Assembly: GCF_004366355.1 (NCBI RefSeq) | Contig: NZ_SODV01000001.1 | Coordinates: 2,728,001-2,792,000 of the forward strand | Length of the DNA: 64,000 nt | DNA from: Dinghuibacter silviterrae | GTDB taxonomy: Bacteria; Bacteroidota; Bacteroidia; Chitinophagales; Chitinophagaceae | Reading direction: 5' to 3' | Part shown: one piece after another, positions 15,073 through 33,529 of the stretch | How the letters are laid out: each line of letters starts with the position of its first letter | Position numbering within the stretch: position 1 is the first letter of the stretch | Notes under the pieces: generated by a model | Seen by the model: only the letters and a program-made list of their open reading frames with translations | The model's database searches: none | What the model was told of the DNA's origin: nothing | Program-made: the position numbers and the translations under genes

Positions 15073-18000
15073 GGATAGGGAAAAAAATAAACGAGCCTGG
15101 ACGCAGCTACCCCGCGGGAGCGTGGGCTCGCTGTGGGACGCCGGTCGGGGGCCACGCGGCGACATGGCCATGGATGCGCGGCGCAGCCGCGGCGCTGTTG
15201 GCCGCCTTCGCCCTTGACGGCTCGCAGGCCCAGGGTACCGGCCCCGACACCCGTGTCAAGGCCGCGCCCGCGGTGCAACGCGTGGAAACGGAGGTCCCCC
15301 TGAAGGACATCACCGCCATCGGCGGCTTCGCGGGTGACCGCATCCGAAAAAACGAAGCGCATTACCTCGATACTTTTTCCATAGAAAAATATGTCGCGTT
15401 GATCCAGAACCCGGCGACGACGGCCTGGGACTGGCGCCCGGGCGAACAGCCGGGAAAATGGCTGGAGGCTTCCATCCTGGCGACGCAACGGGTTAAGGAT
15501 AAAGCCCTGGAGGAAAAAGCAAAAACCATGTATGAACGCATCCTGAATGCCCAGGGCAAAGATGGGTATGTGGGCGTGACCAGTCCTTCCATACGGACCC
15601 CGGACAATCCCCTGAGGGGCATGGATGCGTATGAATTGCACTTCCTGCTCCACGCCTTGCTGACGGGATACGAAGACTGGCAGGACGTCCGGGGATTGAC
15701 GGCAGCGGAGCGTCTCGGTGATTATTTTCTGCGCTTTATCGGACCGGGGAAGGCGGGTTTCTGGCCGGGAGCTCAGCGGCCCCCGGAAAATAAGGGGGTG
15801 ACGTTTAAAGGGACGCAACACTCGGCCATGGCAGGGCATAGCGTCCATTACGGTTGGGAAGGGACGCTTTTGGTCGACCCGATGATGCGGTTATACGAAG
15901 TGAGCGGAGACCGGCGTTACCTGGATTGGTGCCGCTGGGTGGTGCGCCAGATCGATACCTGGAGCGGATGGGATGCGTTTTCAAAGTTGGGCCGGATGCC
16001 GGTGAACGAGGTGCAGCCTTATGCGCATGCGCATACTTTTCAGATGAATTTTCTGGGTTTTCTGCGGCTGTACCGCGCCACGGGGGATACGGCACTTTTG
16101 CATAAGGTAGAGGCGGTATGGGACGACGTGGCTTCCCGCCAGATGTACCTCACCGGCGGGGTGAGCGTGGGCGAACATTATGAGAAAGACTTTGTCAAAC
16201 CCCTGACGGGGAAAATGATGGAGACTTGCGCCACTATGTCGTGGATGCAGTTGTCTCAGGCACTGTTGGAGCTCACCGGGGAAACAAAGTACGCGGACGT
16301 CATCGAGCGTGCACTATGGAACCAGGTGTTTGCCGCCCAGGCCATAGACGGGAACGCCCACCGCTACAATACGCCCCCCGATGGTGTGGTGCCTGAGGGC
16401 TTTTTCCGGGACCCGGACTGTTGTTCGGGGAGCGGGGAACGTCTGGAGACCATGCTACCGGCCTTCATCTACGCCGTCGGGGCGCGGCATACGGTTTTCA
16501 TCAACCAATTTGTCGCCTCTACGGTGACCCTTACCGTTGGGCAGGCGGTGCGTTTGACACAAACGACGGACTACCCCTCTTCGGGCCGGGACGAGATCGA
16601 CGTGCGGCCCGCAAAGGCCGCAACCTTTACACTGGAGGTCCGTATCCCTTCCTGGTGTACCGGTGCCAGCGTATCGGTGAACGGTGTGCCCATACCTGGT
16701 GTGCACCCGGGGCACTACCTCCCACTGACCCGGCAGTGGGCGCCGGGGGACAAGGTGGTGCTGGACTTTCCGATGCAGTTGTCCTGGGTGCGGCATGAAC
16801 ACTACATGAAGACCGCAGACAAAAAGCCGTATAAGACCGAGCCGGATGCGGATGCGCCTTATGCGCTCGTGCGGGGGCCGTTGGTGTATGCGGCGGATGA
16901 TATGTGGTATGCGCGGCCCGGCGATAGCGCTGCACAGAGTGCGGCCGGGACGCCCGGGCCGTTTGGCAAGGATCTTTTCAGCTCCGTGAAGTACGTCCTG
17001 GTGGACCCCGCTACGTTCGCGCCGGTAGCACACCCGGAGCCGGATCTTTTGGGTCCGGGCTTCATGGTACCTTTTGAAACAGCGAATGGACAACGGTTTA
17101 CCATGCCGGTGTACCCGTTTGCCAATATCGGGAAGTGGTACAAGGACCCGGCGCAAGCCCCCGGCCGGGACTCGGCGGCGTATGCCTACGCAGTCTGGCT
17201 AAAAGGAACGGCCAAACCGGACGTCGTGCTCCCGAATGTATTGGGCAGCGATATGGTTCTTCAAAGAAGGCGGCCGGTACCGGTATGGGGTCGGGCGACG
17301 CCCGGCGAAACCGTGACGGTGTCCTTTGGCGGGCAGCAAAAGACGGCACCGGTGGCTTCCGATGGCCGGTGGATGGTTTACCTGGACCCGATGGAGGCCT
17401 CGGCCCAACCGCGGCAGATGGTCATCCGGGGCAGGGACAGCATTGTTCTGGACGACGTGCTGGTGGGCGAGGTCTGGCTGTGCTCCGGACAGTCGAATAT
17501 GGAGTTCACCATGATGAAAAGCGCGAAGTTTGAAAACACCCTGCGCTACCCGGCGCCCCGGCATGCGCTCGACAGCGCGGACAACGCAGCCATCCGTATT
17601 TTCCTCGTCCACCGCGGTTTTTCGAAGGCCGGCACGAAGGCGCCATGGGACACCGCCGAAGGAAGGGCGCTGCGGACCTTTTCTGCGGTGGGGTACTTTT
17701 TTGCGCAATCCCTGTACGACCACCTGCACGTACCCATCGGGATGATTGACGCCTCCGTAAGCGGCAGCCATATAGAGCCCTGGTTACCGGGGAACGGGAC
17801 CTACGATACCAGCTCTTCCGCCCCGGGGAAGTTTTATGACGATATGATCGAGCCGCTGGCGCCCTTTGCCCTCAAGGGGTTTTTATGGTACCAGGGTGAA
17901 ACCAACTGTTTTCTGGGGGAGACGGAGCAATACACGGACAAGATGGTCCGGCTGGTGACCAGCTGGCGTGCGCTTTGGAAGGACACCGGCGCGTCCTTTT

Positions 18001-18527
18001 ATTACGTGCAACTCCCCCCTTATGAATATTCGAAGACCAAAGGCCTGACTACGACATCGCTGCCTGCCTTCAGAGAAGCTCAGACGCGGGTGCTGGCCTT
18101 GCCGCACACGGGCATGATCGTCACCACCGACCTGGTGGACGACCTGTCGCAGCTACATCCTTCCTACAAGTGGATTGTGGGCAGGCGGCTGGCCCGTTGG
18201 GCGCTGGCAAAGGACTATGGACAGGACATCGTGTACTCGGGACCGTTATACACGGTGATGGAATTGAGGAAAAGGTCGGTGGCGTTGACGTTTACCCACG
18301 GGCCGTTGGACGCCGGGGACGGCAAGCCCCTGACCTGTTTTAGCATAGCGGGAAGGGACGGTCAGTTTGTCCCGGCGCAGGCGGAGATCCGCGGGGACAA
18401 GGTGATCGTTTCCGGTGTGCGCCACCCTACGGCCGTCCGTTTTGCATGGAGCGAGGACGCACAACCGAATTTATTCAACGAGGCAGGGCTCCCGGCGGCG
18501 CCCTTCCGTACAGATGAGGCACCATGA
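15069..18527 (+). CDS. Fusion of GH127 beta-L-arabinofuranosidase-like enzyme and sialate O-acetylesterase-like esterase
   Basis: Two complete enzyme domains are in one reading frame. Residues about 70-700 are GH127, and the zinc-thiolate catalytic centre known for this family is intact: Glu385 and Cys387 in METCA, Cys451 and Cys452 in DPDCCSGSG. Residues about 715-1150 are an SGNH esterase of the sialate O-acetylesterase type: VLGSDMVLQRRRPVPVWG start, Ser809 in CSGQSNME, and LWYQGETN further on. A sialate substrate is unlikely here; deacetylation of pectic sugars is more plausible. The N-terminus has an unusually long Arg-rich prefix before a hydrophobic stretch near residue 35-55, so export is uncertain. 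It overlaps both neighbours by ATGA. Confidence 0.9.
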   Translation: MRIGKKINEPGRSYPAGAWARCGTPVGGHAATWPWMRGAAAALLAAFALDGSQAQGTGPDTRVKAAPAVQRVETEVPLKDITAIGGFAGDRIRKNEAHYLDTFSIEKYVALIQNPATTAWDWRPGEQPGKWLEASILATQRVKDKALEEKAKTMYERILNAQGKDGYVGVTSPSIRTPDNPLRGMDAYELHFLLHALLTGYEDWQDVRGLTAAERLGDYFLRFIGPGKAGFWPGAQRPPENKGVTFKGTQHSAMAGHSVHYGWEGTLLVDPMMRLYEVSGDRRYLDWCRWVVRQIDTWSGWDAFSKLGRMPVNEVQPYAHAHTFQMNFLGFLRLYRATGDTALLHKVEAVWDDVASRQMYLTGGVSVGEHYEKDFVKPLTGKMMETCATMSWMQLSQALLELTGETKYADVIERALWNQVFAAQAIDGNAHRYNTPPDGVVPEGFFRDPDCCSGSGERLETMLPAFIYAVGARHTVFINQFVASTVTLTVGQAVRLTQTTDYPSSGRDEIDVRPAKAATFTLEVRIPSWCTGASVSVNGVPIPGVHPGHYLPLTRQWAPGDKVVLDFPMQLSWVRHEHYMKTADKKPYKTEPDADAPYALVRGPLVYAADDMWYARPGDSAAQSAAGTPGPFGKDLFSSVKYVLVDPATFAPVAHPEPDLLGPGFMVPFETANGQRFTMPVYPFANIGKWYKDPAQAPGRDSAAYAYAVWLKGTAKPDVVLPNVLGSDMVLQRRRPVPVWGRATPGETVTVSFGGQQKTAPVASDGRWMVYLDPMEASAQPRQMVIRGRDSIVLDDVLVGEVWLCSGQSNMEFTMMKSAKFENTLRYPAPRHALDSADNAAIRIFLVHRGFSKAGTKAPWDTAEGRALRTFSAVGYFFAQSLYDHLHVPIGMIDASVSGSHIEPWLPGNGTYDTSSSAPGKFYDDMIEPLAPFALKGFLWYQGETNCFLGETEQYTDKMVRLVTSWRALWKDTGASFYYVQLPPYEYSKTKGLTTTSLPAFREAQTRVLALPHTGMIVTTDLVDDLSQLHPSYKWIVGRRLARWALAKDYGQDIVYSGPLYTVMELRKRSVALTFTHGPLDAGDGKPLTCFSIAGRDGQFVPAQAEIRGDKVIVSGVRHPTAVRFAWSEDAQPNLFNEAGLPAAPFRTDEAP

Positions 18528-21500: not shown

Positions 21501-21631
21501 CGATCGGGACCAAGTCGCAAAAAGCAGAGAACATGGGCCCTTCGGGGCATCAGAATATGTATTATGACTATGGCAAGTCCCCGGCTTATGCAAAACGGGT
21601 GACGTTGTTTTTTAATTTCTCAGGAGAATGA
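18524..21631 (+). CDS. GH2 beta-galactosidase-like glycoside hydrolase with tandem-repeat insert
   Basis: The order is signal peptide, GH2 jelly roll (GLYRYRFIVPEDWNG, GDFWVFGGIYRPVYL), Ig-like domain, TIM barrel (FKGICRHSFWP, MNAVRMSHYPPDDHF) and a C-terminal beta-galactosidase small-chain-like domain. The acid/base is probably Glu415 in WDNGNE and the nucleophile Glu472 in FPTEFLHA, which aligns with the CEYAH block of LacZ. Likely activity is exo-beta-galactosidase or a related GH2 activity on pectin side chains. Two repeat inserts of about 60 and 40 residues split the region after the TIM barrel: four copies of a 15-residue AADSLSGV unit, then an Ala/Gln/Arg-rich block. Confidence 0.88.
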   Translation: MKRIVYITILAGLWLRGHAQTLYLSGTGSDHTVNWDFLCTGGQNAGKWTTIPVPGNWELQGFGAYNYGLDKDTLKAREQGLYRYRFIVPEDWNGKTVKIVFEGSMTDTRVSINGRVAGPIHQGAFYRFSYDITPLLRYGRQNLLEVTVSKVSANRSVNQAERHGDFWVFGGIYRPVYLQAFPVQHIDHVAIDAGGDGALRAELRLAGLRLAGPGGREGATGAPGADSVRAQVFTLDGRPVGGSFTARVTNDTLVRLQTVVPGILPWSPEAPQLYQLRCTLLGHGQTLHVTERRFGFRTIELRPEDGIYVNGVKIKFKGICRHSFWPTTGRATSKALSIEDVELMKEMNMNAVRMSHYPPDDHFLDVCDSLGLFVLDELTGWHHAYDTEVGSRLVREMIDRDVNHPSVVLWDNGNEGGFNFDLDPLFDRLDIQHRPLIHPWAVFRHTDTQHYINYDYGSGTGLHGHDVTFPTEFLHALYDGGGGAGLQDYWEWMWNDPLSAGGFIWDFSDEAVVRTDRNGELDTDGDHAPDGVLGPYREKEGSFYAIKAVWTPVVMGRKEVTPSFDGRLTVENRYFYTNLNRCSYRWTLKRLGGPWAVPAAQGPSTAPAAAPPAGAADSLSGVAPAPPTGAADSLSGVAPAPPTGAAADSLSGVVPAPPAGAATDSLSGVAAAPDVRPGDKGVLDLGLPANWNQYDVLYLTIRDAFGRELYTWSWPLRLPEAIAERVASMPVGAPQAAARQAAAPQAVARQAASPVATQANAATAATNAAVRLATTDTTYEVTTGPLHLTFNRASARLTGVRNAQGTIPFGQGPLLCDTTDVGFKGMDTHYTGDSLVLEATFEKKSDCQTLRWTVCPSGWVKLDVAYFPEAYTTDYMGISFSYPEAKVKGVRWMGEGPYRVWKNRMKGTTLGLWDKAYNNTVTGQGNPVYPEFKGYYANLYWVRLLTDGQPVTIVCASRDVFLRLYTPAWPAHAYNTAPPFPVGDISFMHAIPPIGTKSQKAENMGPSGHQNMYYDYGKSPAYAKRVTLFFNFSGE
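20356..20535 (+). repeat. 45-bp tandem repeat, four units, in the GH2 gene
   Basis: The unit encodes 15 residues around GAADSLSGVAPAPPT. Copies 1 (20356-20400) and 2 (20401-20445) differ at one or two bases. Copies 3 and 4 carry an extra codon (Ala, Thr) before the Asp. The array sits between the TIM barrel and the last domain. Confidence 0.92.
20720..20779 (+). repeat. 30-bp direct repeat, two units, in the GH2 gene
   Basis: Two 30-base units (20720-20749, 20750-20779) encode APQAAARQAA and APQAVARQAA. They lie about 190 bases after the 45-bp array in the same gene. Confidence 0.85.
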
Positions 21632-24159
21632 AGCGGGGGCTGACGATATGGATCCTGTTGCTTCTCGCCGGCGGCGCACAAGCGAGCGGCGGGGTGGACT
21701 CGCTGCGTTGTGAAGGCCGCGTAAATCCCATGGGGATCGACGCGCCCCGGCCGGTGCTGAGCTGGGTCCTCACGGGGAATGAACGGGGTATCCGCCAGGT
21801 CGCCTACCAGGTCATCGTGTCCGGCAAAAAGGGCGAGCGTTGGAACTCGGGTAAGGTCACGAGCAACCGGAGCATCGGTATACCTTATAAAGGCAAAGCC
21901 CTGGAAAGCCGCGAAGCCCTCACCTGGAAAGTGAGGGTATGGACCAATTACGGAGTAAGCGCCTGGAGTGCCCCCGCGCACTGGACGATGGGGCTTCTCC
22001 GGTCTTCGGACTGGACCGCGCAGTGGATCGGGTATGAACACGGTTTTCCCTGGGATAGCGTGTCCAAGTATTCCCGCCTCTCCGCGCGGTATTTCCGGAA
22101 GACCTTTGACAACCCCCAAAAGGTGCGGCGGGCAACCCTTTATATCGTTGGGTTGGGACACTACGAGGCGTACATCAACGGGCAGCGCGTGGGTGACGAC
22201 GTATTGACGCAAATCCCCACGGACTACACAAAAGAAGTGGACTACCGCACCTATGACGTGACGGAGAACATTACAAAGGGCGCCAATGCACTGAGTGTGG
22301 TCCTTGGCAACGGACGCTTCTTTACGATGCGCCCGAAGTATAAGCCGCTTAAGATAAAAGAATTTGGTTTTCCCCGCCTTTTGTATCAACTGGAAATAAC
22401 CCGCGAAGACGGATCTGTTGCGCGCGTCGTGAGCGATGGTTCCTGGTTGTTTGCGGCGGACGGACCCATCCGGAGCAACAACGAATACGACGGGGAGGAA
22501 TATGATGCGACCAAAGAACCGGGAAACTGGTTACGGCCGGAAGTATTGCCCTCCTGGGGCGCCGCGCTCAAGGCCCAGACACAAGATCCGATCCGCGTGG
22601 TGGACGTGGTCCATCCCGCCGGTCTGAAAGAAATAAAGCCCGGAACCTGGATCATGGACATGGGGCGCAATATGGCGGGCTGGGTTCAGCTAAAGGTGCG
22701 CGGGGAAAGGGGAACAAAAGTGACCCTCCGTTTTGCGGAAACGCTTCGCGAAGACGGGTCTTTGGATATGGCCAACCTCCGGGACGCCAGGGCCACGGAT
22801 GTGTATACGTTGAAAGGGGAGGGGTTGGAGGTGTGGCACCCTGTTTTTGTTTACCATGGTTTTCAGTATGTGTCTATAGAGGGATACCCGGGTACGCCCG
22901 CGCTCAGTGACTTCGAGGGCCAGGTGGTGTCGGACGGGCTTGATACGCTGGGCACCTGGACGTCTTCCAATGACCTGTTCAACAGGATCTATGCGAACGC
23001 GTGCCGCAGCATCCAAAGCGATTATAAATACCTGCCGCTGGACTGTCCGCAGCGGAACGAGCGGATGCCCTGGCTGGGGGACCGGGCCGTGGGCTGTCTC
23101 GGGGAAAGCTTTTGGGTGGACAACCACCGCCTGTATGCGCAATGGCTGGACGACATGGAAGCTGCGCAAAAAAAGGACGGTTCACTGCCGGACGTGGCGC
23201 CCGCCTACTGGAATTATTACAGCGACAACATGACCTGGCCGGGAACCTACCTGATGGTGGCGGACATGTTATACCGCCAGTTCGGGGACGCGGCGCCCAT
23301 CCGGAAACACTACGCGTCCATGAAACGGTGGATCCTCTATATGCATGAACGGTATGGCCCTTTGACAAAGGACAAATATGGGGACTGGTGTGCGCCGCCG
23401 GGTGTTGCATCCACCGGTGGGACCCTGATCGCCACGGCGTATGACGCACACCTCCTGGACCTGATGACGGGTTTTGCGCCGCTGGCAGGGTCGCCAGCCG
23501 ACGTACCCCGCTGGAAGAAGATGCGCGCGGTGGCTGCGAGGGCTTTTGACAGTGCGTTTGCGAAGGCCGCTGACAGCACAGCCACGGCGAGCTTGTTGCC
23601 TTTGGTTTTCGACCTGACAAAGGACACGGCGCGCCTCCTGCGGACCCTGGCGCGATACACCCACGTCGCCACCGGCGTCATCGGTACCGGCTGGCTGATG
23701 CGCGGGCTTACGGACAATGGTCTTTCCAACCTGGCGTACCGCGTCGCGAACAACCGGGACTACCCGGGCTGGGGCTACATGGTGGAACAAGGCGCCACCA
23801 CCATCTGGGAACGCTGGAACGGCAACACCGCCGAATCCTCGATGAATTCCCGGAACCACGTCATGTTGTTGGGGGATCTTTTGCCTTGGTTATACGAGGA
23901 CCTGGCGGGGATAAAGGCCGGGACGCCCGGTTTTGGGCTGATCATCATGAAACCGGTGTGCGTGGACAGCCTGGGTTTTGTACGCGCGTCCTACCGAACA
24001 CCTTATGGGTTGGTGTATAGTGCCTGGGAAAACGAGCCAGATAAATGGACCTGGCACCTTCGGATCCCGCCAAACGCCCGCGCCCGGGTGTATCTGCCGG
24101 GCCGGAAGGGAAGCCTGGAATTAGGGTCAGGTGTATATACCTTAGAAGAACGAAAATGA
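21628..24159 (+). CDS. GH78 alpha-L-rhamnosidase, secreted
   Basis: Exo-acting alpha-L-rhamnosidase that would remove rhamnose from rhamnogalacturonan fragments. The protein has a signal peptide and the usual GH78 sequence: Ig-like N-domain (GRVNPMGIDAPRPVLSW), rhamnose-binding-like beta domain (WTAQWIG, YEAYINGQRVGD), then the (alpha/alpha)6 barrel. The general acid is probably Glu478 in DCPQRNERMPWLGD and the base Glu728 in TTIWERWNG. The 843-residue length is normal, and no repeat insert is seen. It overlaps the GH2 gene and the next gene by ATGA. It belongs to the well-characterised GH78 group, unlike the second GH78-like gene at 39596. Confidence 0.93.
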   Translation: MKRGLTIWILLLLAGGAQASGGVDSLRCEGRVNPMGIDAPRPVLSWVLTGNERGIRQVAYQVIVSGKKGERWNSGKVTSNRSIGIPYKGKALESREALTWKVRVWTNYGVSAWSAPAHWTMGLLRSSDWTAQWIGYEHGFPWDSVSKYSRLSARYFRKTFDNPQKVRRATLYIVGLGHYEAYINGQRVGDDVLTQIPTDYTKEVDYRTYDVTENITKGANALSVVLGNGRFFTMRPKYKPLKIKEFGFPRLLYQLEITREDGSVARVVSDGSWLFAADGPIRSNNEYDGEEYDATKEPGNWLRPEVLPSWGAALKAQTQDPIRVVDVVHPAGLKEIKPGTWIMDMGRNMAGWVQLKVRGERGTKVTLRFAETLREDGSLDMANLRDARATDVYTLKGEGLEVWHPVFVYHGFQYVSIEGYPGTPALSDFEGQVVSDGLDTLGTWTSSNDLFNRIYANACRSIQSDYKYLPLDCPQRNERMPWLGDRAVGCLGESFWVDNHRLYAQWLDDMEAAQKKDGSLPDVAPAYWNYYSDNMTWPGTYLMVADMLYRQFGDAAPIRKHYASMKRWILYMHERYGPLTKDKYGDWCAPPGVASTGGTLIATAYDAHLLDLMTGFAPLAGSPADVPRWKKMRAVAARAFDSAFAKAADSTATASLLPLVFDLTKDTARLLRTLARYTHVATGVIGTGWLMRGLTDNGLSNLAYRVANNRDYPGWGYMVEQGATTIWERWNGNTAESSMNSRNHVMLLGDLLPWLYEDLAGIKAGTPGFGLIIMKPVCVDSLGFVRASYRTPYGLVYSAWENEPDKWTWHLRIPPNARARVYLPGRKGSLELGSGVYTLEERK

Positions 24160-27100
24160 GTGTTATGACAAAAATGGGTTGGATTTTCCTCTTGCTGCCG
24201 GTCGCCCTTCATGCCCAGACGTGGAAGAAAGGGATCGTCAAGGACGAATTTATTTTTACAAGCGCTCCCTTTCCTTCTTGTCACGCGGCCACGATCGCGG
24301 CCACGCCGGCGGGGTTGGTGACGGCCTGGTTTGGAGGCAAAAATGAGGGCGCGCCCGACGTGTGTATCTGGGTCAGCCGGATGGTGGGGGGACAGTGGAC
24401 GGCCCCGGCACGTGCGGCCGATGGGATCCAGCACGATAGCACGAATCCCTCGACGGGCCGGCGCGACACGCTCCGCTACGCCTGCTGGAACCCTGTACTC
24501 TACCAGATCCCCGGCGGGCAACTGCTGCTATTTTATAAGGTCGGCCCCAAAGTCGCTGCCTGGAAAGGTTTTCTAAAAACCTCTTCCGATAATGGCGTCA
24601 CCTGGTCCTCCGCCATCGCCCTGCCGGACGGGTTCCTCGGCCCCATCAAAAACAAACCCGTTCTTCTGGACGGTGGACGTTTGTTGTGCCCGAGCAGTAC
24701 GGAAAAAGACGGCTGGAAGGTACATTTCGAGGAGACGGACGATGGGGGGCGAACATGGCGTATGATCGGACCCCTCGAAGGGAAAGCCATCCAACCCAGC
24801 ATCCTCCGCTATCCCGACGGGCGCTTACAGGTCCTTTGCCGTAGCCAGCAGCGCGCCATTATGGAATCGTGGTCGACCGACGGCGGCAGGACCTGGTCCG
24901 CGCTGACCCCCACCGATCTACCCAACAACAATTCCGGCACCGACGCCGTCACCCTCAAAGACGGCCGGCAGCTTCTGGTGTACAACCACGTCCTTCCACC
25001 CGAAGGACAAACCAAGGGAGACCGGACACCCCTGAACGTGGCCGTGTCCCGGGACGGGCGGCAATGGAACGCCTCGCTGGTGCTCGAAGACTCGAAAATC
25101 AGTCAGTATTCCTATCCTTCTGTGATCCAAACCCCCGACGGGATGGTACACATCGTATATACCTGGAGAAGACAACGGATCAAATACGTAGAGGTAGATC
25201 CCGCCAAACTCGAAGAAAAACCCATCGCGGGCGGCATCTGGCCAGGCATCACGGTGGCTTCGGAATCTTCCGACGGCGACTATACCCGCCCGTTAAAAGA
25301 CGTCCTCCAGGACGTGGAGACCCGTTACCACGTCCGTATCAAAATGCCGGACTCGATGATGACGGGTAAGGTCGTCCCGTTTGCCTTCTGGCGTTTCCGG
25401 GCGTCCGCGGACCAAACCCTGGACGACATCCTTACGCCCCTGGACATGAAGGTGAACAAGATCAACGACTCGACCTATAAGCTCAAGGACTACGAATACT
25501 ACCGCTGGTCCGTAGCCGACGGTCAAGCTTACCTGGATGAACTTTCCGCCCGGTACAACGATCGGGCGTCCTGGGAGACGCGGAAGGCGCAACTCCGTAC
25601 GGACTTGTACAAGGCGTTGCGGCTCTCACCCCTGCCGCATTCGCCCGGGAAACCGCCGATCCTGACGGCGGTGCGCCATAAGGATGGGTATACCGTGCAG
25701 AATATTGCGTTGGAGACCCTGCCGGGGTTGTATGTGTGCGGGTCGATCTACCGCCCGGGACGCGCCGCCGGCAAACTCCCCGTCATCCTCTGCCCCGACG
25801 GCCACTGGGACGGCGGCCGCTATCGCCCCGACTGCCAGTACCGGTGTGCGACGCTCGCGCGGCTGGGGTGTATCGCGGTGAGCTACGATCTTTTTGCGTG
25901 GGGCGAATCGCAACTGCAATTCAGGTATGAGGACCACCGGCGCAGCCTGGCGCAGACCATCCAGGTGCTGAACAGCATCCGGCTGCTGGACTACCTGTTG
26001 AGCCTCAAGGAAGCGGATACGGCCCGCGTAGGGATCTGCGGTGGATCGGGTGGGGGGAGCCTGACAACGATGGTGACGGCCCTGGACGACCGGATCAGGG
26101 TGGCGGCCCCCGTCGCCTCGGTCTCCTGCTATATGTTCGGCGGGTGTCCCTGCGAAAGCGGGATGCCGGTGTACGAAAGCGCGGGGGGGACGGACGTGCC
26201 CGAAATCGCGGCCATGGCGGCGCCCCGGCCCTTGCTGGTGGTAAGCGACGGAGGGGACTGGACGGACCATGTGCCCCGGATCGAGTATCCGTATCTCCAA
26301 AAGGTATATGGCTATTTCGGGGCGGAGGGCGACGTTCACGATGTACACCTTCCGCACGAAGTACATGACTTTGGGATCAATAAACGGGAGGCCGTCTACT
26401 ACTTTTTCTCAAAATACTTCCACCTCGATACGACGAAAATCGATGAACATAAAGTAACGATAGAACCGGAAGCCGCTATGTACGCGCTGGGGGGCCAACT
26501 GCCCGCGGACGCGATCCACGGGTTTGACAGCCTGACGGCGGTGTTTGAGCACGCGCACGCGCTCGTGTCGGAACCGGCGTTTGACGCGATGGCGGTGACG
26601 GCGCCCGCAAGACCCGCGGGGCGGGCCGCCCGCGCCAGAGCCTCGCTGCTCGCCGCCCACGCCAAAGCCGCGCTGCTCGCGGCAGAGGGGGCGCCCCCGC
26701 GCTACCGCGTAGCCCTGATCGACCTGATGCTGCTCAAACGCCAGAAGTTAGGCGCCCTGGACCTGGCTAAGCGCCTGGACGCGGATGGCATCGAAGTAGA
26801 CATGGGCGGCCTGGGGACACGGGAGACCTTTGACAACCAGTTGGCGATCGACTCCATCAGAAACCAATACCTCAGCAAGAGCAAGGCGTTAAACCTTGAG
26901 ATCTGCTCCCTGGCCATGACCGGGTTTTATGCGCAGTCTTTTCCCACGAGACCCACGGCTGTGAAAGCGGTAGGCGATTGCATCGCCACCATGCGGCAAA
27001 TGGGCGTGCATACGGGATTTCTACCGCTGGGTGTGGAAGGGGACTTAAAGAAACACCCGGAGCTGCGGCCGGCTATAGTAGAGCGGCTAAAAGCCGTTGG

Positions 27101-27509
27101 CCAAATGGCCAAAGACTCGGGGGTGGTGATTGGGATAGAGACGTCATTGAATGCGAAGCAAGCAATACGACTCCTAAAGGACATCGGCTCCCCAAACATC
27201 AAGATCTGTTTCAACCTCGCGGACCCGATCCAACAAGGGGAAGACCCTTACAAAGAATTGGAGACGCTGGGTAAAAACCGGATCAGCGAGATCCATTGCA
27301 GTAACAAGGACAGCGTGTGGCTGCAGTACGATCCACAGGTGGATCTGCACCAGCTAAAGAAAACGCTGGACCGGATGGGCTGGAGCGGGTGGCTGGTGAT
27401 CGAACGGTCGCGGGACGCGAAGGACCCGCACAATGTCAAAAAGAACTACGGGGCCAACGTGGCCTATGTCAAATCGATATTTCAAAATAGTGTATATGCG
27501 CATCTTTAA
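24156..27509 (+). CDS. Triple fusion: BNR propeller + STN-like/acetylxylan-esterase-type hydrolase + sugar phosphate isomerase/epimerase TIM barrel
   Basis: This 1117-residue protein joins three parts usually encoded separately. A signal peptide (WIFLLLPVALHAQ) is followed by a sialidase-like propeller (residues about 25-360) with Asp-boxes such as SSDNGVTW, TDDGGRTW and STDGGRTW. Residues about 370-440 resemble an STN-like module (DVLQDVETRYHVRIKMPDSM) that, in Bacteroidota, precedes an esterase. The alpha/beta hydrolase (about 455-790) has Ser631 in CGGSGGG and the closing HEVHDFG block. After an Ala/Arg-rich linker (about 805-845), a xylose-isomerase-like TIM barrel (848-1117) begins RYRVALIDLMLLKRQKLGA and contains GIEVDMGGLGTRETFDN. 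The start at 24156 is set by the ATGA overlap. One leader would export the whole chain. Catalytic activity of each part is untested. Confidence 0.85.
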   Translation: MSVMTKMGWIFLLLPVALHAQTWKKGIVKDEFIFTSAPFPSCHAATIAATPAGLVTAWFGGKNEGAPDVCIWVSRMVGGQWTAPARAADGIQHDSTNPSTGRRDTLRYACWNPVLYQIPGGQLLLFYKVGPKVAAWKGFLKTSSDNGVTWSSAIALPDGFLGPIKNKPVLLDGGRLLCPSSTEKDGWKVHFEETDDGGRTWRMIGPLEGKAIQPSILRYPDGRLQVLCRSQQRAIMESWSTDGGRTWSALTPTDLPNNNSGTDAVTLKDGRQLLVYNHVLPPEGQTKGDRTPLNVAVSRDGRQWNASLVLEDSKISQYSYPSVIQTPDGMVHIVYTWRRQRIKYVEVDPAKLEEKPIAGGIWPGITVASESSDGDYTRPLKDVLQDVETRYHVRIKMPDSMMTGKVVPFAFWRFRASADQTLDDILTPLDMKVNKINDSTYKLKDYEYYRWSVADGQAYLDELSARYNDRASWETRKAQLRTDLYKALRLSPLPHSPGKPPILTAVRHKDGYTVQNIALETLPGLYVCGSIYRPGRAAGKLPVILCPDGHWDGGRYRPDCQYRCATLARLGCIAVSYDLFAWGESQLQFRYEDHRRSLAQTIQVLNSIRLLDYLLSLKEADTARVGICGGSGGGSLTTMVTALDDRIRVAAPVASVSCYMFGGCPCESGMPVYESAGGTDVPEIAAMAAPRPLLVVSDGGDWTDHVPRIEYPYLQKVYGYFGAEGDVHDVHLPHEVHDFGINKREAVYYFFSKYFHLDTTKIDEHKVTIEPEAAMYALGGQLPADAIHGFDSLTAVFEHAHALVSEPAFDAMAVTAPARPAGRAARARASLLAAHAKAALLAAEGAPPRYRVALIDLMLLKRQKLGALDLAKRLDADGIEVDMGGLGTRETFDNQLAIDSIRNQYLSKSKALNLEICSLAMTGFYAQSFPTRPTAVKAVGDCIATMRQMGVHTGFLPLGVEGDLKKHPELRPAIVERLKAVGQMAKDSGVVIGIETSLNAKQAIRLLKDIGSPNIKICFNLADPIQQGEDPYKELETLGKNRISEIHCSNKDSVWLQYDPQVDLHQLKKTLDRMGWSGWLVIERSRDAKDPHNVKKNYGANVAYVKSIFQNSVYAHL

Positions 27510-28332
27510 AACAGCCCATACCATCCTGCTGGAACACGAGGGGCACTGTTATGTGTCTCCTGAGAAGGACTGGGATCATTATATTAACCGGGACAACCTG
27601 TATGCGCTCCTGCTGGAAGAAATAAAGCGGTTGACGAGCGTGGGGACGAAGGAGTGGCTGGACACGCAGCCGCTGAGGGCCCCCATCGGGAGCCAGGAGG
27701 TCTGGGCGGCGGGGGTGACCTATCTGCGCAGCAAAACGGCCCGGATGGAAGAAAGCAAGGAAAGCGGGGGCGCGGTGTTTTACGACAAAGTGTATGAAGC
27801 CGAGCGTCCGGAGCTGTTTTTCAAGGCCACGGCCCAGCGGGTATCAGGGCCGGGCGAGCCGGTGCGCATCCGTAAGGACAGTACCTGGGATGTGCCGGAG
27901 CCGGAGCTGGTCTTGGTGATCACCAGCACGGGAAACATCGTGGGCTACAGCATCGGCAACGATATGAGCAGCCGGAGCATCGAAGGGGAGAACCCGCTTT
28001 ACCTGCCGCAGGCCAAGGTATATGAGCGTTGCGCGGGGCTGGGGCCGAGCATCCTGGTCACGGAGACGCCCATAGATCCGGCCACGGGCATCCACATGAC
28101 CATACATCGGGAGCGCAGGCAGGTCTTCGAAGGCAGCGTGACGATCGACCGGATGAAGCGGGCGCATACCGAGCTGGTGGGATATTTATACAGGGAGTGC
28201 GCCTTCCCCAACGGATGTTACCTGATGACGGGGACGTGTATCGTCCCGGAGGCAGGATTTACGCTCCAAAGCGGAGACAAGATAACGATAGGTATAGATA
28301 ATATTGGAATCCTTATAAATACAGTCGAATGA
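27496..28332 (+). CDS. Fumarylacetoacetate-hydrolase-family protein, 2-keto-3-deoxy-sugar-acid dehydratase/hydrolase-like
   Basis: Cytoplasmic enzyme of 278 residues in the FAH fold. The family uses a divalent metal held by two Glu and an Asp, here in VPEPELVLVI and later in NDMSSRSIEGEN. The segments WAAGVTYLRSKTARMEESKE and YLPQAKVYERCAGLGPSI resemble 2-dehydro-3-deoxy-D-arabinonate dehydratase-type proteins. It would act on a 2-keto-3-deoxy acid formed from a pentonate or similar sugar acid. The start at 27496 overlaps the fusion gene by 14 bases; upstream in-frame ATGs lie deeper inside that gene. It is the first of the cytoplasmic catabolic genes. The exact substrate is unknown. Confidence 0.8.
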   Translation: MRIFKTAHTILLEHEGHCYVSPEKDWDHYINRDNLYALLLEEIKRLTSVGTKEWLDTQPLRAPIGSQEVWAAGVTYLRSKTARMEESKESGGAVFYDKVYEAERPELFFKATAQRVSGPGEPVRIRKDSTWDVPEPELVLVITSTGNIVGYSIGNDMSSRSIEGENPLYLPQAKVYERCAGLGPSILVTETPIDPATGIHMTIHRERRQVFEGSVTIDRMKRAHTELVGYLYRECAFPNGCYLMTGTCIVPEAGFTLQSGDKITIGIDNIGILINTVE

Positions 28333-29294
28333 ACAAGTTTGTACCGGTGATGATCACCCCGTTCAACCTCAAGGCGAAAGTCGACCTGGAGGCGGTATCG
28401 GTGTTGGTGGAGTTTTACCTGGCGGCCGGTGTCAGGGGTTTTTTTGCCAATTGTCTGTCGAGCGAGATGTACAGCATCAGCGAGGACGAGAGGCTGGAGC
28501 TGACCCGGCACATCGTTCGCCGGGTGCGGGGCCGGGTGCCGGTGGTCGCCACGGGCTCTTTTGGCCTCACGGTCGAGGACAAGGCGGAATTTACCAGGCG
28601 GATCCACGACACCGGGATCGATGCGGTCATCCTGATCACGGGGCACTATGCCAATGTGGAGGACGACGACGCGGTGCTGATGAAGAATTTTGACAAGATG
28701 TTTCGCCTGACGGGGAACATTCCGCTGGGGTTGTATGAATGCCCGGCGCCCTACAAGCGGATCATCACGCCCGGGGTTTTCCGGGCGTTGCTGGATACGG
28801 GCCGGTTGGTGTACCACAAGGACACCTCGATCGACCTGGAAAAGGTCAAGGCCAAACTGGACGTGGCCAGGGACGTGACAAACTTCGAGTTTTACGACGC
28901 GCACACGCCAAACGCCATGTACTCGCTGCAAATGGGCGCCCGGGGGATGTCCTCGATCTCGGGGAACTTCTACCCGGAGGTCCTGGTGTGGATGGTGAAC
29001 AACGCGACCGACCCCGCCCGGCAGGAAGACGTGAAGTGGCTGCAGGGTGAGCTCAGCCGGGTAGATCCCCTGATCCACGTAGCCTATCCCCTTAGCGCCA
29101 AATACTTCCTCCGGAAACGGGGGTTGCCCATACGCACCATCAGCCGGGCGGTGGCCACGGAACTGACCGTCGCCCAGAAAAGGACATTGGATGAGATCTT
29201 TGACTCCTTCCAGGGTTGGTGTGCACGCCTGGGTATTACCCCCGTTCCGGCGGAGGCATTGAGCACGCCGATTCCTTTAGATCCCCCTATTTAA
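28329..29294 (+). CDS. DapA/NanA-family aldolase or dehydratase, first copy
   Basis: Class I aldolase superfamily TIM barrel of 321 residues. The probable Schiff-base lysine is Lys164 in VYHKDTS, and the family Tyr lies in LGLYECP. The protein differs from lysine-pathway DapA: the usual GTTGE loop is replaced by FANCLSSEMYS, which indicates a different substrate carboxylate or hydroxyl pattern. In this cluster it would cleave or dehydrate a 2-keto-3-deoxy sugar acid. It overlaps the FAH gene by ATGA. The specific reaction cannot be read from the sequence. Confidence 0.82.
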   Translation: MNKFVPVMITPFNLKAKVDLEAVSVLVEFYLAAGVRGFFANCLSSEMYSISEDERLELTRHIVRRVRGRVPVVATGSFGLTVEDKAEFTRRIHDTGIDAVILITGHYANVEDDDAVLMKNFDKMFRLTGNIPLGLYECPAPYKRIITPGVFRALLDTGRLVYHKDTSIDLEKVKAKLDVARDVTNFEFYDAHTPNAMYSLQMGARGMSSISGNFYPEVLVWMVNNATDPARQEDVKWLQGELSRVDPLIHVAYPLSAKYFLRKRGLPIRTISRAVATELTVAQKRTLDEIFDSFQGWCARLGITPVPAEALSTPIPLDPPI

Positions 29295-29311
29295 ACCTCA
29301 CTATGTAATCT

Positions 29312-30457
29312 ATGACAGAACTGAAAATGTATTTCCCCGGTAAGCTGGTGATGGGCAAAGGCGCCCTGGAACGGTTAACCGAAGACATCACCGCCTGGAA
29401 TCCCGAACGGGTCCTGGTGGTGACGATATTTCCTTTGTTGCCCCTGTTAAAGGGGCTGATCGATTCCCTGGAAGCCAGGGGCGTGGTGGTCTCCGTGGAT
29501 ACCGGGATTGTGCAGGAACCTACTTTTGCCGACTTCCGCGAACTGATGAGCCGTGCAGCGCCTTTTAACCCGGACGTCGTGATCGGGGCGGGGGGCGGCA
29601 GCGTGCTGGATATTGCCAAGCTCGTCGCGGCGCAAGTGGGGAATCCCCAACCCCTGGAGGCCTATGTGGGCAACGGCCTGCTCCAGGGCCGGTACCGCAA
29701 GCTGGTGTGTCTGCCGGCTACCGCGGGTACGGGTAGCGAAGCCTCTCCCAACGCCATCCTCGTGGATGATACCGATAACCAGAAAAAAGGCATCATCAGC
29801 CCCTACCTGGTACCGGACGTGGTGTATATAGATCCGCTGCTGACCCTGAGCGTACCGCCCGCTGTCACCGCGGCCACGGGGCTGGACGCGTTTACGCATT
29901 GCCTGGAAGCGTACACCAATATTTACGCCCATCCTTTTATCGATATGTACGCGCTCCAGGGGATGAAGCTGATTGCCGAAAACCTGGTCCGCGCGGTCCG
30001 GGACGGGAACGACGTGGACGCCCGGGCGCAACTGATCCTGGGAAGCCTGCTGGGTGGTTTTTGCCTGGGGCCGGTCAACACGGCTGCGGTACACGCCTTG
30101 TCGTATCCGCTGGGGAGCGCGTTCCACCTGGCCCACGGTTTATCCAACGCCCTGTTGCTCCCGCACGTGATGGAGTTCAACCTGGTGGCGGCCCCCCGGC
30201 GCTATGCGGACGTTGCCCTGGCGCTGGGCTGTTCCCGGGCGGCCACGGACGAGGCCACGGCCCGGGCGGGAGTGGGCAAGGTCCGGGCATTGATCCGGGA
30301 CTGCGGGATTCCTTCCCGGCTGGCGGAGGTGGGCGTATCCTCCGCGTCGGTGCCCGACCTGGCCACGGGGGCGATGGAAGTAAAAAGACTACTCAAAAAC
30401 AATCCGCGTCCTGTCGCGTGGCAGGACGCGGTGGACATCTTTAATGCTGCGTTATGA
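29312..30457 (+). CDS. Iron-containing (group III) alcohol dehydrogenase
   Basis: NAD(P)-dependent dehydrogenase with a Rossmann-like N-domain containing AGGGSVLDIAK and a helical metal-binding C-domain. The four metal ligands of the family are present: Asp192 and His196 in DAFTHCLEAY, His261 in AVHALSYPLG, His275 in HLAHGLSN. Length 381 is typical. It probably interconverts an aldehyde or alcohol made in the acid-sugar pathway, for example lactaldehyde, glycolaldehyde or a semialdehyde. The 17-base gap upstream is one of the few non-overlapping joins in this part of the operon, but it has no convincing promoter. Confidence 0.9.
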   Translation: MTELKMYFPGKLVMGKGALERLTEDITAWNPERVLVVTIFPLLPLLKGLIDSLEARGVVVSVDTGIVQEPTFADFRELMSRAAPFNPDVVIGAGGGSVLDIAKLVAAQVGNPQPLEAYVGNGLLQGRYRKLVCLPATAGTGSEASPNAILVDDTDNQKKGIISPYLVPDVVYIDPLLTLSVPPAVTAATGLDAFTHCLEAYTNIYAHPFIDMYALQGMKLIAENLVRAVRDGNDVDARAQLILGSLLGGFCLGPVNTAAVHALSYPLGSAFHLAHGLSNALLLPHVMEFNLVAAPRRYADVALALGCSRAATDEATARAGVGKVRALIRDCGIPSRLAEVGVSSASVPDLATGAMEVKRLLKNNPRPVAWQDAVDIFNAAL

Positions 30458-31359
30458 ACTATTCTGGTGTTGTTGTTCCGGCCATTACACCGCTGGAGGA
30501 GAACGGTCTCCTGGACGAGGCCGCCGTGGAACGTTTGTGGGAACGATTCGAACAATATGGAGTCGACCCCTTTATCCTGGGGACAACCGGTGAGGGGCCA
30601 AGCCTGAGCCTCGCTTTGAAATCGGCGTACATCCGTCTCGCGGGCCGGTTGCAAACGCCCAGGCAACGGTTGTTTGTTGGGATAGGATCGGCCTGTCTGG
30701 AGGATTCGCTGGCACTGGCCTTTAGCGCCTTCGAGGCGGGTGCGGACGCGGTGGTGTCGACGCTGCCGTCCTACTACGCGCTGGAGGTGGACGACATGCG
30801 GGCGTATTTCCTTGCGCTCGCAGACCGCGTGGGTGGCCCCTTATTTATCTACAACATCCCGTCGACGACGCACATGTCGATTCCACTGTCCCTGGTGGAC
30901 GAACTTTCCGGTCACCCGAATATCGTGGGTATGAAGGATTCCGAACGGGGGGAGGAACGGCTGTTTGAGGCGCTGCGGCGAAAACCCGAAGGCTTTTGCC
31001 ACCTCCTGGGCTGGTCGGCCAGGTCGGCCCTGGCCCTGGAGCTGGGGAGCAACGGGCTCGTGCCCAGCAGCGCCAACCTCAGCCCCCGTTTGTACCGGGC
31101 ATTGTACGAAGCGGCGCGGGCGGGGCAGACAGAAGAGGCGGCGCGGCTCCAAAAGGTATCCGACGCGCTCGGGGAAGTGTATCAGAAGGGACGCAGTCTC
31201 GGAGCGTCGCTCGCGGCGATGAAGGCGATACTGGCCGCCAAAGGCATTTGCGGCCCGCAAATGGCGCCGCCATTGAGAGCGATGGCGCCGCCAGTCGGCG
31301 CGGCTTCGCCGCTGGTGCTCTCACAAAAAGACATAGACCTGATCAACGAATGGATATGA
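30454..31359 (+). CDS. DapA-family aldolase, second copy with classic GTTGE loop
   Basis: A second class I aldolase superfamily member of 301 residues, clearly divergent from the one at 28329. It has ILGTTGEGPSLS, the Tyr in FIYNIPSTTHMS and probable Schiff-base Lys161 in VGMKDSERG. This set is typical of the 2-keto-3-deoxygluconate aldolase/DapA-like group, so pyruvate plus an aldehyde is the likely product pair. The C-terminus has an Ala/Pro-rich insert at about residues 268-286 (PQMAPPLRAMAPPVGAA), another GC-rich insert of the kind found throughout this window. It overlaps both neighbours by ATGA. Confidence 0.85.
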   Translation: MNYSGVVVPAITPLEENGLLDEAAVERLWERFEQYGVDPFILGTTGEGPSLSLALKSAYIRLAGRLQTPRQRLFVGIGSACLEDSLALAFSAFEAGADAVVSTLPSYYALEVDDMRAYFLALADRVGGPLFIYNIPSTTHMSIPLSLVDELSGHPNIVGMKDSERGEERLFEALRRKPEGFCHLLGWSARSALALELGSNGLVPSSANLSPRLYRALYEAARAGQTEEAARLQKVSDALGEVYQKGRSLGASLAAMKAILAAKGICGPQMAPPLRAMAPPVGAASPLVLSQKDIDLINEWI

Positions 31360-32393
31360 ACCCAAGACCAATTCTAGGCATTACGATGGGCGACCCCGCG
31401 GGCATCGGCCCGGAGATCGCCGTCAAGGCCCTGTTACAACCCGGGGTGTATGCGCGCTGCCGGCCCCTGCTGGTGGGCGACGCGGGGGTGATCGAACGCA
31501 TCACCCGCCACCTTCGGCTGCCGGCCACGATCCGGCCGGTCCACGCGGTAAGTGAAGCGCGGTACAACGAAGGCACCATCGACGTTTTGGACATGCAGAC
31601 CGTCCCCAACAAGGACCTCCCCTGGGGTGAGATCAGCGCGGAATCCGGGCACGCCTCTTTCGAAGCAGTGCGCGAGGTGATCGCGCTGGCGATGAAAGGC
31701 GCGGTAGACGCCACCGTGACCGGGCCCATCCACAAAAAAGCCATCAACGAAGCCGGGCATCACTTTGCCGGGCATACGGAAATCTATGCGCACTTTACCC
31801 ACACGGCCAGGTATGGGATGTTGCTGGTGGAGGAACACCTCCGGGTTATCCACGTGTCGACCCATGTATCACTCCGCCAGGCCTGCGACCTTGTCACAAA
31901 GGAGCGGGTGCTGGAAGTGATCGAACTCCTGGATAAGGGGCTTAGAAGCCTGGGGATAGAAGACCGCAGGATCGGCGTGGCGGGGTTGAACCCACACGCG
32001 GGGGACTCCGGGCTTTTTGGAACGGAAGACGACGGAGAGATCCTGCCGGCGGTAAAAACCGCGCAGGAACGAGGTTTTGACGTCGAAGGACCGGTCCCGC
32101 CGGATACCCTGTTTGCCAAAGCCGCTACCGGCTATTACGGTGGCGTCGTCGCCATGTACCACGACCAGGGACATATCCCCTTCAAACTCTCGGGTTTTAC
32201 CTGGAACGCCAAAGCGGGAAGGATGGACAGCGTCAAGGGGGTCAACATCACCCTTGGGTTGCCCATTATCCGGACCTCGGTCGACCACGGCACGGCCTTC
32301 GAGATCGCCGGCAAAGGAATCGCCAGCCCCGACGCGATGTCGCTGGCAATCGATGCCGCCATTCAATTACACGTAAATAAGAACACGATATGA
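31356..32393 (+). CDS. PdxA2-like 4-phospho-D-threonate/D-erythronate dehydrogenase
   Basis: Member of the PdxA family of metal-dependent, NAD-linked oxidative decarboxylases, with GITMGDPAGIGPEI, TGPIHKKAINEAG, FAGHTEIYAHF and AMYHDQGHIPFK, including the metal-binding histidines. When next to a DUF1537 kinase, as here, the established role is catabolic: oxidation of 4-phospho-D-threonate or D-erythronate to dihydroxyacetone phosphate and CO2, rather than vitamin B6 synthesis. The start at 31356 gives the ATGA overlap; an ATG at 31350 would add Met-Asp. The stop overlaps the kinase start (ATGA). Confidence 0.88.
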   Translation: MNPRPILGITMGDPAGIGPEIAVKALLQPGVYARCRPLLVGDAGVIERITRHLRLPATIRPVHAVSEARYNEGTIDVLDMQTVPNKDLPWGEISAESGHASFEAVREVIALAMKGAVDATVTGPIHKKAINEAGHHFAGHTEIYAHFTHTARYGMLLVEEHLRVIHVSTHVSLRQACDLVTKERVLEVIELLDKGLRSLGIEDRRIGVAGLNPHAGDSGLFGTEDDGEILPAVKTAQERGFDVEGPVPPDTLFAKAATGYYGGVVAMYHDQGHIPFKLSGFTWNAKAGRMDSVKGVNITLGLPIIRTSVDHGTAFEIAGKGIASPDAMSLAIDAAIQLHVNKNTI

Positions 32394-33529
32394 TTGCTGT
32401 CATTGCCGACGATTTTACGGGTGCTGCGGAACTGGGAGGGGTTGCCCTCCGGTATGACCTGTCGGTGGAAATCCATACCGAAGTCAATCCCGCCTGCAAG
32501 GCGGACGTCCTGATCATTGCTTCCGATACCCGGGCGATGAACGAAGAGGATGCGATGCACGAGATGAAGCGCATCACCGAGGCCGTGGCTCCCCTGAGAC
32601 CCCAGTTGATCTTTAAAAAAGTAGACTCCGTCCTGAGGGGGCATGTCGCCGCCGAAATGGAGGTGCAGATGAGGGTGCTGGGTTTTTCAAAGGCCCTCCT
32701 GGTGCCGGCGAATCCCGTGCTGGGCAGGACCATCCGGAACGGTTTGTACTACCTGCAGGGACAACCCATCCACCACAGCGGGTTTTCCCAAGACCCCGAA
32801 TACGCCATTACGAGCGCGCGCATCCACGATATGCTGCGTATCCCGGAGGGAAAGATCCCGGTCCGGAAGCTGAGCGACGACCTGCCCCTTACGGGGATTG
32901 TCGTGGGCGAGGCGGAGATCGCTTCCGACCTCCAGGACTGGGCCAGGCGCATCGACGGTGAAACGCTCGTGGCGGGTGCCTCGGGCTTTTTTGCCGCGGT
33001 GCTCGACAGCCTGCATGTCCGGGGCGTGGCGGATACGCATTACCGTGAGCCGGCCGGCAAACCCTGTCTGTTTGTCTGCGGCAGCGCCTACGCCCAAAGC
33101 CTGGAGACCATCCGTACCCTGGAAGAACGGGGCGGCCCCGTGAGCTATATGCCCCTGTCCCTGGCCAGCACGGAGGACCTGGACAGCCTGGAAGACTGGG
33201 TGGAGGAAGTTCGCGAGCTGATTGAAGAATTTGGTGTCGCGATCATCGCCATCCGTGGCGGAGAAACCCACCTGGTATCCCCGTCCGCCCTTCGGGAAAG
33301 GACTGCGCTCCTCGTCCAACAGGTGTGCGCCCGGGAAAGCATCCGTGAATTGTTTATTGAAGGAGGCTCCACCGCCCGGACGATCCTGGAGCGCCTGGAC
33401 CTTCAAACCTTTGTCCCCGTCGAAGAAAAGGCCGCGGGGGTCATCCGCATGCGCATGCCCGAACACCCCGGGCTGCACGTTACCGTAAAGCCGGGCAGCT
33501 ACAGCTGGCCCGCCTTGTCCATGCTCTAA
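32390..33529 (+). CDS. Four-carbon acid sugar kinase family protein (DUF1537)
   Basis: ATP-dependent kinase of the DUF1537 family, 379 residues. N-terminal motif IADDFTGAAELGG, then KKVDSVLRGH, and a C-terminal nucleotide-binding region with IEGGSTARTIL. Known members phosphorylate D-threonate, D-erythronate (partner PdxA2) or 3-oxo-isoapionate from D-apiose. Coupling to the PdxA2-like gene favours threonate or erythronate, while the GH140 gene upstream in the same operon makes an apiose-derived acid a real alternative. It is followed after 12 bases by an SSS symporter, the likely importer. Confidence 0.88.
   Translation: MIAVIADDFTGAAELGGVALRYDLSVEIHTEVNPACKADVLIIASDTRAMNEEDAMHEMKRITEAVAPLRPQLIFKKVDSVLRGHVAAEMEVQMRVLGFSKALLVPANPVLGRTIRNGLYYLQGQPIHHSGFSQDPEYAITSARIHDMLRIPEGKIPVRKLSDDLPLTGIVVGEAEIASDLQDWARRIDGETLVAGASGFFAAVLDSLHVRGVADTHYREPAGKPCLFVCGSAYAQSLETIRTLEERGGPVSYMPLSLASTEDLDSLEDWVEEVRELIEEFGVAIIAIRGGETHLVSPSALRERTALLVQQVCARESIRELFIEGGSTARTILERLDLQTFVPVEEKAAGVIRMRMPEHPGLHVTVKPGSYSWPALSML

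Follow-up and report, generated by a model that had tools for sequence, protein, structure and literature searches.

A predicted exported fusion of a sialidase-fold propeller, a CE19-type esterase and an isomerase-like TIM barrel in an apparent rhamnogalacturonan II locus of Dinghuibacter silviterrae

In the genome of Dinghuibacter silviterrae, a member of the Chitinophagaceae (Bacteroidota), we analysed a stretch of 64,000 nucleotides (contig NZ_SODV01000001.1, positions 2,728,001 to 2,792,000 of the forward strand), hereafter called the window. It contains a gene coding in one frame for a signal peptide, a BNR propeller, an esterase module of the CE19 family and a TIM barrel, in this order. 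The window further holds genes for a TonB-dependent receptor plug, SusD, a GH140 apiosidase, a BT_1020-like propeller, GH127/SASA, GH2, GH78, GH141 and GH106 proteins and others, and from this gene content it looks like a locus for the utilisation of rhamnogalacturonan II (RG-II), one of the most complex polysaccharides of plants. The frame of the fused gene is free of stops from 24045 to 27509, and its start codon overlaps the stop codon of the upstream GH78 gene in the sequence ATGA (Table 1). The product begins with MSVMTKMGWIFLLLPVALHAQ, of which the signal-peptide character was judged by eye. A sequence-only reading of this DNA had proposed one frame with three domains behind one signal peptide, internal partners that lost their own leaders, and an Ala/Arg-rich linker between the last two domains. 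All of this held: 24156-27509 is open throughout, the domains were recovered by matches to Pfam and to PDB entry 6goc, neither the CE19 module nor the barrel has a leader within the fused protein, and the linker is found at residues 801-848.

Table 1. Features of the fused gene and of neighbouring genes, in positions of the window; domains and sites are predictions
Feature	Position	Strand	Basis or remark
GH78 alpha-L-rhamnosidase gene, immediately upstream of the fused gene	21628..24159	+	fused to the propeller in several relatives
Whole fused gene, 1117 amino acids plus stop	24156..27509	+	
Signal peptide, residues 1-21	24156..24218	+	by eye
BNR propeller, sialidase (GH33) fold, residues 22-360	24219..25235	+	Pfam BNR_2, model, GH33 structure matches
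Cap domain 1 of the CE19/BT1017 module, residues ~366-465	25251..25550	+	alignment to 6goc; domain description in passages of PMC7939467
Alpha/beta-hydrolase domain of the CE19/BT1017 module, residues ~466-800	25551..26555	+	alignment to BT1017
CE19 predicted catalytic triad	Ser631 (26046), Asp701 (26256), His737 (26364)	+	alignment to BT1017
CE19 predicted zinc ligands	His550 (25803), His594 (25935), Cys664 (26145), Cys666 (26151)	+	
Linker, residues 801-848, Ala/Arg-rich	26556..26699	+	contains Met812, a conceivable internal start
TIM barrel, residues 849-1112	26700..27491	+	Pfam, alignment, conservation in 101 copies, model, fold matches
Putative metal site of the barrel	Glu995 (27138), Asn1020 (27213), His1047 (27294), Glu1083 (27402)	+	
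FAA-hydrolase family gene, immediately downstream of the fused gene	27433..28332	+	start 27496 likelier
GFO/IDH/MocA oxidoreductase gene	36987-38021	+	

The two junctions were inspected for signs of an interrupted gene. Neither of the remaining two forward frames showed a hydrophobic leader at 25140-25330 or at 26480-26740, and third-position GC, taken in two 40-residue blocks per junction, was 0.57 and 0.75 at the first and 0.85 and 0.82 at the second (range over both 0.57-0.85). Because neither junction conceals a leader in another frame and third-position GC stays continuous, a frameshift or assembly error appears unlikely. The genome assembly counts 6,497,175 bases in 4 contigs and is 99.98% complete.

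Two-part fusions of the same genes are found in relatives. Twenty stretches were chosen by hand from 105 genomes with matches, so they are not randomly sampled. The esterase lies in one frame with the barrel in seven of them, and GH78 and propeller, which are separate neighbouring genes in the window, are joined in eleven (L033, L034, L035, L036, L037, L042, L043, L044, L046, L048 and L049); a frame with all three parts of the window gene occurs in none of the 20. In a second set, consisting of 80 loci retained from 456 confirmed relatives in a scan of genome contigs, the barrel is fused in three loci, to CE19 in two of them and to a symporter and CE19 in the third, and four more loci have a symporter-CE19 fusion that lacks the barrel. 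The sodium:solute symporter (SSS1)-CE19 fusions were observed in L075, L084, L104, L110 and L121, L104 being the one that also includes the barrel, and they retain a leader-like hydrophobic stretch directly ahead of CE19. With a query spanning the two junctions, 67 of 394 family genomes gave a match (E <= 1e-150), of which only the own genome matched over the whole length, stop-free and in one frame. The other genome of the genus (a single one, 91% complete) gave a propeller-like match only (E <= 1e-10), and the contig scan with the whole fused protein as query returned no relatives. Apparent longer fusions in G015, G067, G106 and G160 were discarded after reading from stop to stop, as no frame contained all three parts.

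The fusion of CE19 to the TIM barrel thus recurs in relatives, and it is already in print: according to Fig. 7C in the passages of PMC7939467, the partners of BT1017-type modules include a solute symporter and a xylose isomerase-like TIM barrel. The proteins with the barrel have in common with ours a CE19 module that precedes a TIM barrel in the same chain, and lack the N-terminal propeller that the window protein adds, so that it is the three-part form alone that was unique in the searches made. In a quick tree of 108 barrels, from which three identical rows had been dropped, the ten fused barrels need at least five changes of label, at least four of them forced by well-supported branches; on this tree gain and loss of the fusion look alike. 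The position of the window barrel is unsure owing to its long branch. Two barrel copies, L058 and L130, come from records titled Williamsia and Verrucomicrobiota (both metagenome-assembled genomes); L058 groups with Mucilaginibacter copies on the tree and its bin is probably mislabelled.

That the three-part form was found in one genome only among 394 searched, together with Met812 in the linker as a possible internal start, would agree with a single frame that is a sequencing or assembly artefact, or with a barrel that is also made separately and stays in the cytoplasm. Against this stand the inconspicuous junctions, the completeness of all domains and the recurrence of two-part fusions, and we consider it highly improbable. 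The best explanation is that three neighbouring genes of the RG-II utilisation locus have genuinely fused into this one.

The middle module is predicted to be a pectin methylesterase of the BT1017/CE19 type. Pfam gave just weak alpha/beta-hydrolase matches (residues 583-656) for the stretch between propeller and barrel. Residues 370-799 match 6goc, the structure of BT1017, the founding CE19 pectin methylesterase from Bacteroides thetaiotaomicron (E 6.9e-137 and, in a second comparison, 2.4e-137), with 219 of 427 aligned residues identical and homology that spans both domains of the catalytic module. The catalytic Ser282, Asp352 and His388 of BT1017, as given in the passages of PMC7939467, align with Ser631, Asp701 and His737 of the fused protein, by which the catalytic-looking motifs of the sequence-only reading gain a meaning: Ser631 corresponds to the BT1017 nucleophile and HEVHDFG contains the triad histidine. 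Of the BT1017 zinc ligands given in the same passages (His201, His244, Cys315 and Cys317), three fall on His594, Cys664 and Cys666 under the same numbering offset as the triad, and the fourth falls on His550 only if the offset is smaller by one, the number in the paper being presumed off by one. By this numbering, Arg245 of BT1017 is conserved as Arg595, and Arg101 falls on Trp451 and may not be conserved. In view of the strong 6goc match and the aligned triad and zinc ligands, the acetylxylan-esterase type suggested earlier has to be replaced by CE19. The stretch earlier described as STN-like corresponds to cap domain 1 of BT1017. BT1017 and the window protein therefore share the cap and alpha/beta-hydrolase domains, the Ser-Asp-His triad, the zinc ligands and a place in an RG-II locus; they differ in that BT1017 has a C-terminal DUF3826 and no propeller, whereas here the CE19 module is flanked by a propeller and a TIM barrel.

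The propeller is recognised by Pfam as BNR_2 at residues 54-333 (E 1.7e-91), and an NCBIfam search with it gave no match at E <= 0.001. Its model (predicted local distance difference test, pLDDT, 90) has the fold of sialidases, matching six-bladed propellers of GH33 with Z about 36 (1wcq: Z 36.2, 310 residues, root-mean-square deviation 2.3, 20% identity) and sharing their Asp-box repeats. Identity to the GH33 sialidases is about 20%, and at the position of the RIP motif, which is characteristic of sialidases, the window protein reads SCHAAT. The likely target would be 3-deoxy-D-manno-octulosonic acid (Kdo), which is favoured because BT1013 of B. thetaiotaomicron combines GH78 with GH33 in one protein and acts on Rha-Kdo. 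No entry of PL42 was named among the 50 structure matches listed for the propeller, a result that leaves room for a PL42-type lyase (passages of PMC8377490).

As regards the TIM barrel, the sequence-only reading had taken it for a normally cytoplasmic fold brought to the periplasm by the fusion, a view that its relatives do not support. In 77 of the 80 loci the barrel stands alone, and a script assigned these copies to the Sec (31), lipoprotein (4) and twin-arginine translocation (Tat)-like (35) types, leaving seven unclear, of which six looked Tat-like and one lipoprotein-like by eye. An export-like N terminus was hence found in 77 of 77 stand-alone copies, as judged by a heuristic script and by eye rather than by SignalP. 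The 13 stand-alone copies in the 20 chosen loci and 10 further copies likewise have leader-like N termini by eye, L039 and L148 being the least clear. From these leaders the barrel is predicted to be natively exported in its own family. We thus rejected the idea that the fusion created export: as the stand-alone relatives already carry export-like leaders, it leaves the compartment of the barrel unchanged.

Pfam assigns the barrel to AP_endonuc_2 (residues 868-1098, E 1.6e-22; 80.8 bits for the whole protein, with a gathering cut-off of 31.1), a family that was recognised in 21 of 21 aligned barrel copies. Its model (pLDDT 91.6) lies nearest to Art22, UlaE (L-xylulose-5-phosphate 3-epimerase) and ketose 3-epimerases, with Z 25-26. 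The metal tetrad of related isomerases and epimerases is Glu-Asp-His-Glu, and at the expected metal positions nearly all of 101 barrels show a Glu-Asn-His-Glu (E-N-H-E) pattern, in which Glu995 and His1047 are conserved in 101 and Asn1020 and Glu1083 in 100 copies. The window barrel resembles UlaE and the ketose 3-epimerases in its fold and, at the putative metal positions, in Glu, His and Glu; it differs from them in having Asn for Asp, in being predicted as exported, in an identity of 12-16% among the matches listed and in scoring far below the curated cut-offs. Lys861, Arg862, Lys864, Arg1084 and Arg1086 are invariant as well and Arg889 occurs in 100 of the 101 copies; by the strand order of the model, that is by secondary structure and not by coordinates, the conserved Lys and Arg are placed in loops after strands on the active-site side, which is compatible with an acidic sugar. 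Tat-like leaders would agree with the loading of a metal before export. Because of the metal-site pattern, the conserved Lys and Arg and the Tat-like leaders, we favour an enolising enzyme of the isomerase or epimerase type, and our best guess is a periplasmic metal-dependent enzyme of this kind acting on an acidic sugar of RG-II.

A barrel that merely binds or serves as a scaffold, without catalysis, would be in line with the replacement of Asp by Asn at the putative metal site and with DUF3826, its counterpart behind CE19 in BT1017, which showed neither esterase activity nor RG-II binding according to the passages of PMC7939467. Against it speak the site residues Glu, His and Glu, which together with about 60 further positions are near-invariant across the 101 copies, and the many copies that stand alone with Tat-like leaders; we rate it as quite unlikely.

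Slightly lower in the list of fold matches stand AtHYD (Z 24.3), YcjR (Z 23.8) and DgpB-DgpC (Z 23.4), within about 3 Z of the best, so a 3-keto-sugar lyase or hydratase, which would resemble DgpB-DgpC or AtHYD and cleave or hydrate an oxidised RG-II sugar, has to be considered. A GFO/IDH/MocA gene is present in the locus (Table 1), and its protein is 66-78% identical in the 16 of the 20 chosen loci where it was found. However, no export signal was seen on this protein or its relatives, and in several lineages the gene is missing from the surroundings of the barrel that were seen, so that no oxidase would be at hand in the periplasm; the oxidoreductase probably works in the cytoplasm, oxidising an RG-II sugar after its import. 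A lyase or hydratase is therefore unlikely in our judgement. An OiaC-like decarboxylase, acting on a beta-keto acid derived from apiose or aceric acid, would be in line with the sequence-only reading, which placed OiaC in the same superfamily, with the GH140 apiosidase of the locus and with the invariant basic residues, which would suit an acid. No enzyme with an export signal was seen that could carry out an oxidation upstream of it, and we regard it as very unlikely.

The distribution of the barrel ties it to the RG-II genes. It was detected (E <= 1e-60) in 19 of 395 Bacteroidota genomes, and full-length CE19 (E <= 2.0e-116, a cut-off chosen after the score gap was seen) in exactly these 19. 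Weaker CE19 matches (1.1e-93 to 5.7e-63), which start at query residue 69 or beyond, occur in another 11 genomes. Propellers of the closest kind (E <= 1e-150) occur in 17 genomes, all within the 19. In the remaining two the propeller match is weaker (6.2e-82 in G524, 1.7e-129 in G674), and three barrel-free genomes (G535, G448 and G310) have stronger ones than either. A propeller was also found in each of nine barrel genomes searched individually, four of which already belonged to the 395-genome sample. As many of the 19 genomes come from one genus they are not independent, and by genus they amount to 10 of 171; chance figures computed for the overlap disregard this and are given no weight here. 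The locus of G524, which was judged Bacteroidaceae-like, combines CE19-DUF3826 (790 bits to 6goc), GH140, GH141 and a GH78-propeller frame with a barrel that has its own leader and lies upstream of SusC/D genes; in G606, the genes for GH78, the propeller, the barrel and an alpha-D-galacturonidase that exceeds its NCBIfam cut-off follow each other in a row. Since the same 19 genomes hold the barrel and full-length CE19, the barrel looks like a member of the RG-II gene set.

Several observations weigh against an enolising enzyme of RG-II breakdown. Such co-inheritance fits any RG-II gene; it places the barrel in the set but says nothing of its reaction, and because the barrel adjoins different genes in different lineages, the genomic context names no substrate. 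The barrel lies far under the NCBIfam cut-offs for IolE (23 bits vs 290), L-ribulose-5-phosphate 3-epimerase (16.8 vs 317) and hydroxypyruvate isomerase (14 vs 353), its profile found no PDB chain at E <= 0.1, and its Asn1020 aligns with an Asp of 3tva. The window copy could have drifted, given its long branch (0.5) and its Glu1029, a position occupied by Arg in 99 of 101 copies. As to the propeller, its top Foldseek match by E-value is 5hx0, a protein of unknown function. The open-access literature searched gave no account of the function of the barrel, nor did the passages of PMC7939467, and nothing usable on 3-keto routes of Bacteroidota or on isomerase-like barrels that are exported there.

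Downstream of the fused gene, on the same strand, 28329-33529 codes in a row for two aldolases of the dihydrodipicolinate synthase family, an iron-containing alcohol dehydrogenase, PdxA and a DUF1537 kinase, and the same group stands together in the relatives L043, L044, L047 and L050. For the kinase the best NCBIfam match is D-threonate kinase, far below the cut-off (117.6 vs 450), and PdxA passes the general PdxA model only. These genes could cleave the 3-deoxy-D-lyxo-heptulosaric acid (Dha) of RG-II in an aldol reaction to pyruvate and a C4 aldehyde acid, which could then be reduced to D-threonate and passed on to the kinase and the PdxA-type dehydrogenase. Upstream, 15069-18527 (+) joins a GH127 catalytic half to a SASA esterase half. 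This gene also seems a fusion of separate genes, because the relatives' matches above 150 bits that were listed, 20 of 20, cover the SASA half alone, from about residue 700, three of them running into the end of the locus.

Taken as a whole, the fused product would act in the periplasm on RG-II. GH78 would remove the rhamnose on an ulosonic acid, after which the propeller would cut off the ulosonic acid, most likely Kdo, the CE19 module would strip methyl esters from backbone galacturonic acid, and the barrel, as a metal-dependent enolising enzyme of the isomerase or epimerase type, would convert an acidic RG-II sugar before import; the fusion would provide for co-export behind one signal peptide and for a fixed ratio of the parts. 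This is our best explanation, and with the fusion and all the activities predicted from sequence counted together, our confidence in it is evenly balanced with our doubt. More tentatively, the barrel may found a family of exported metal-dependent sugar enzymes with the E-N-H-E site, representing a conserved and so far unrecognised step of RG-II breakdown in Bacteroidota, in which Kdo, aceric acid or a uronic acid would be the acidic sugar that is converted in the periplasm. B. thetaiotaomicron cuts 21 of the 22 RG-II linkages (passages of PMC7939467). The fusion itself is modest and the conserved exported barrel is the part of greater interest: present in the same 19 of 395 genomes as CE19, apparently exported when it stands alone and joined to CE19 more than once, it is a candidate for a missing step in RG-II breakdown. 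If this is true, the E-N-H-E barrel would in this genome be chained to the very methylesterase and propeller that help to free its substrate.

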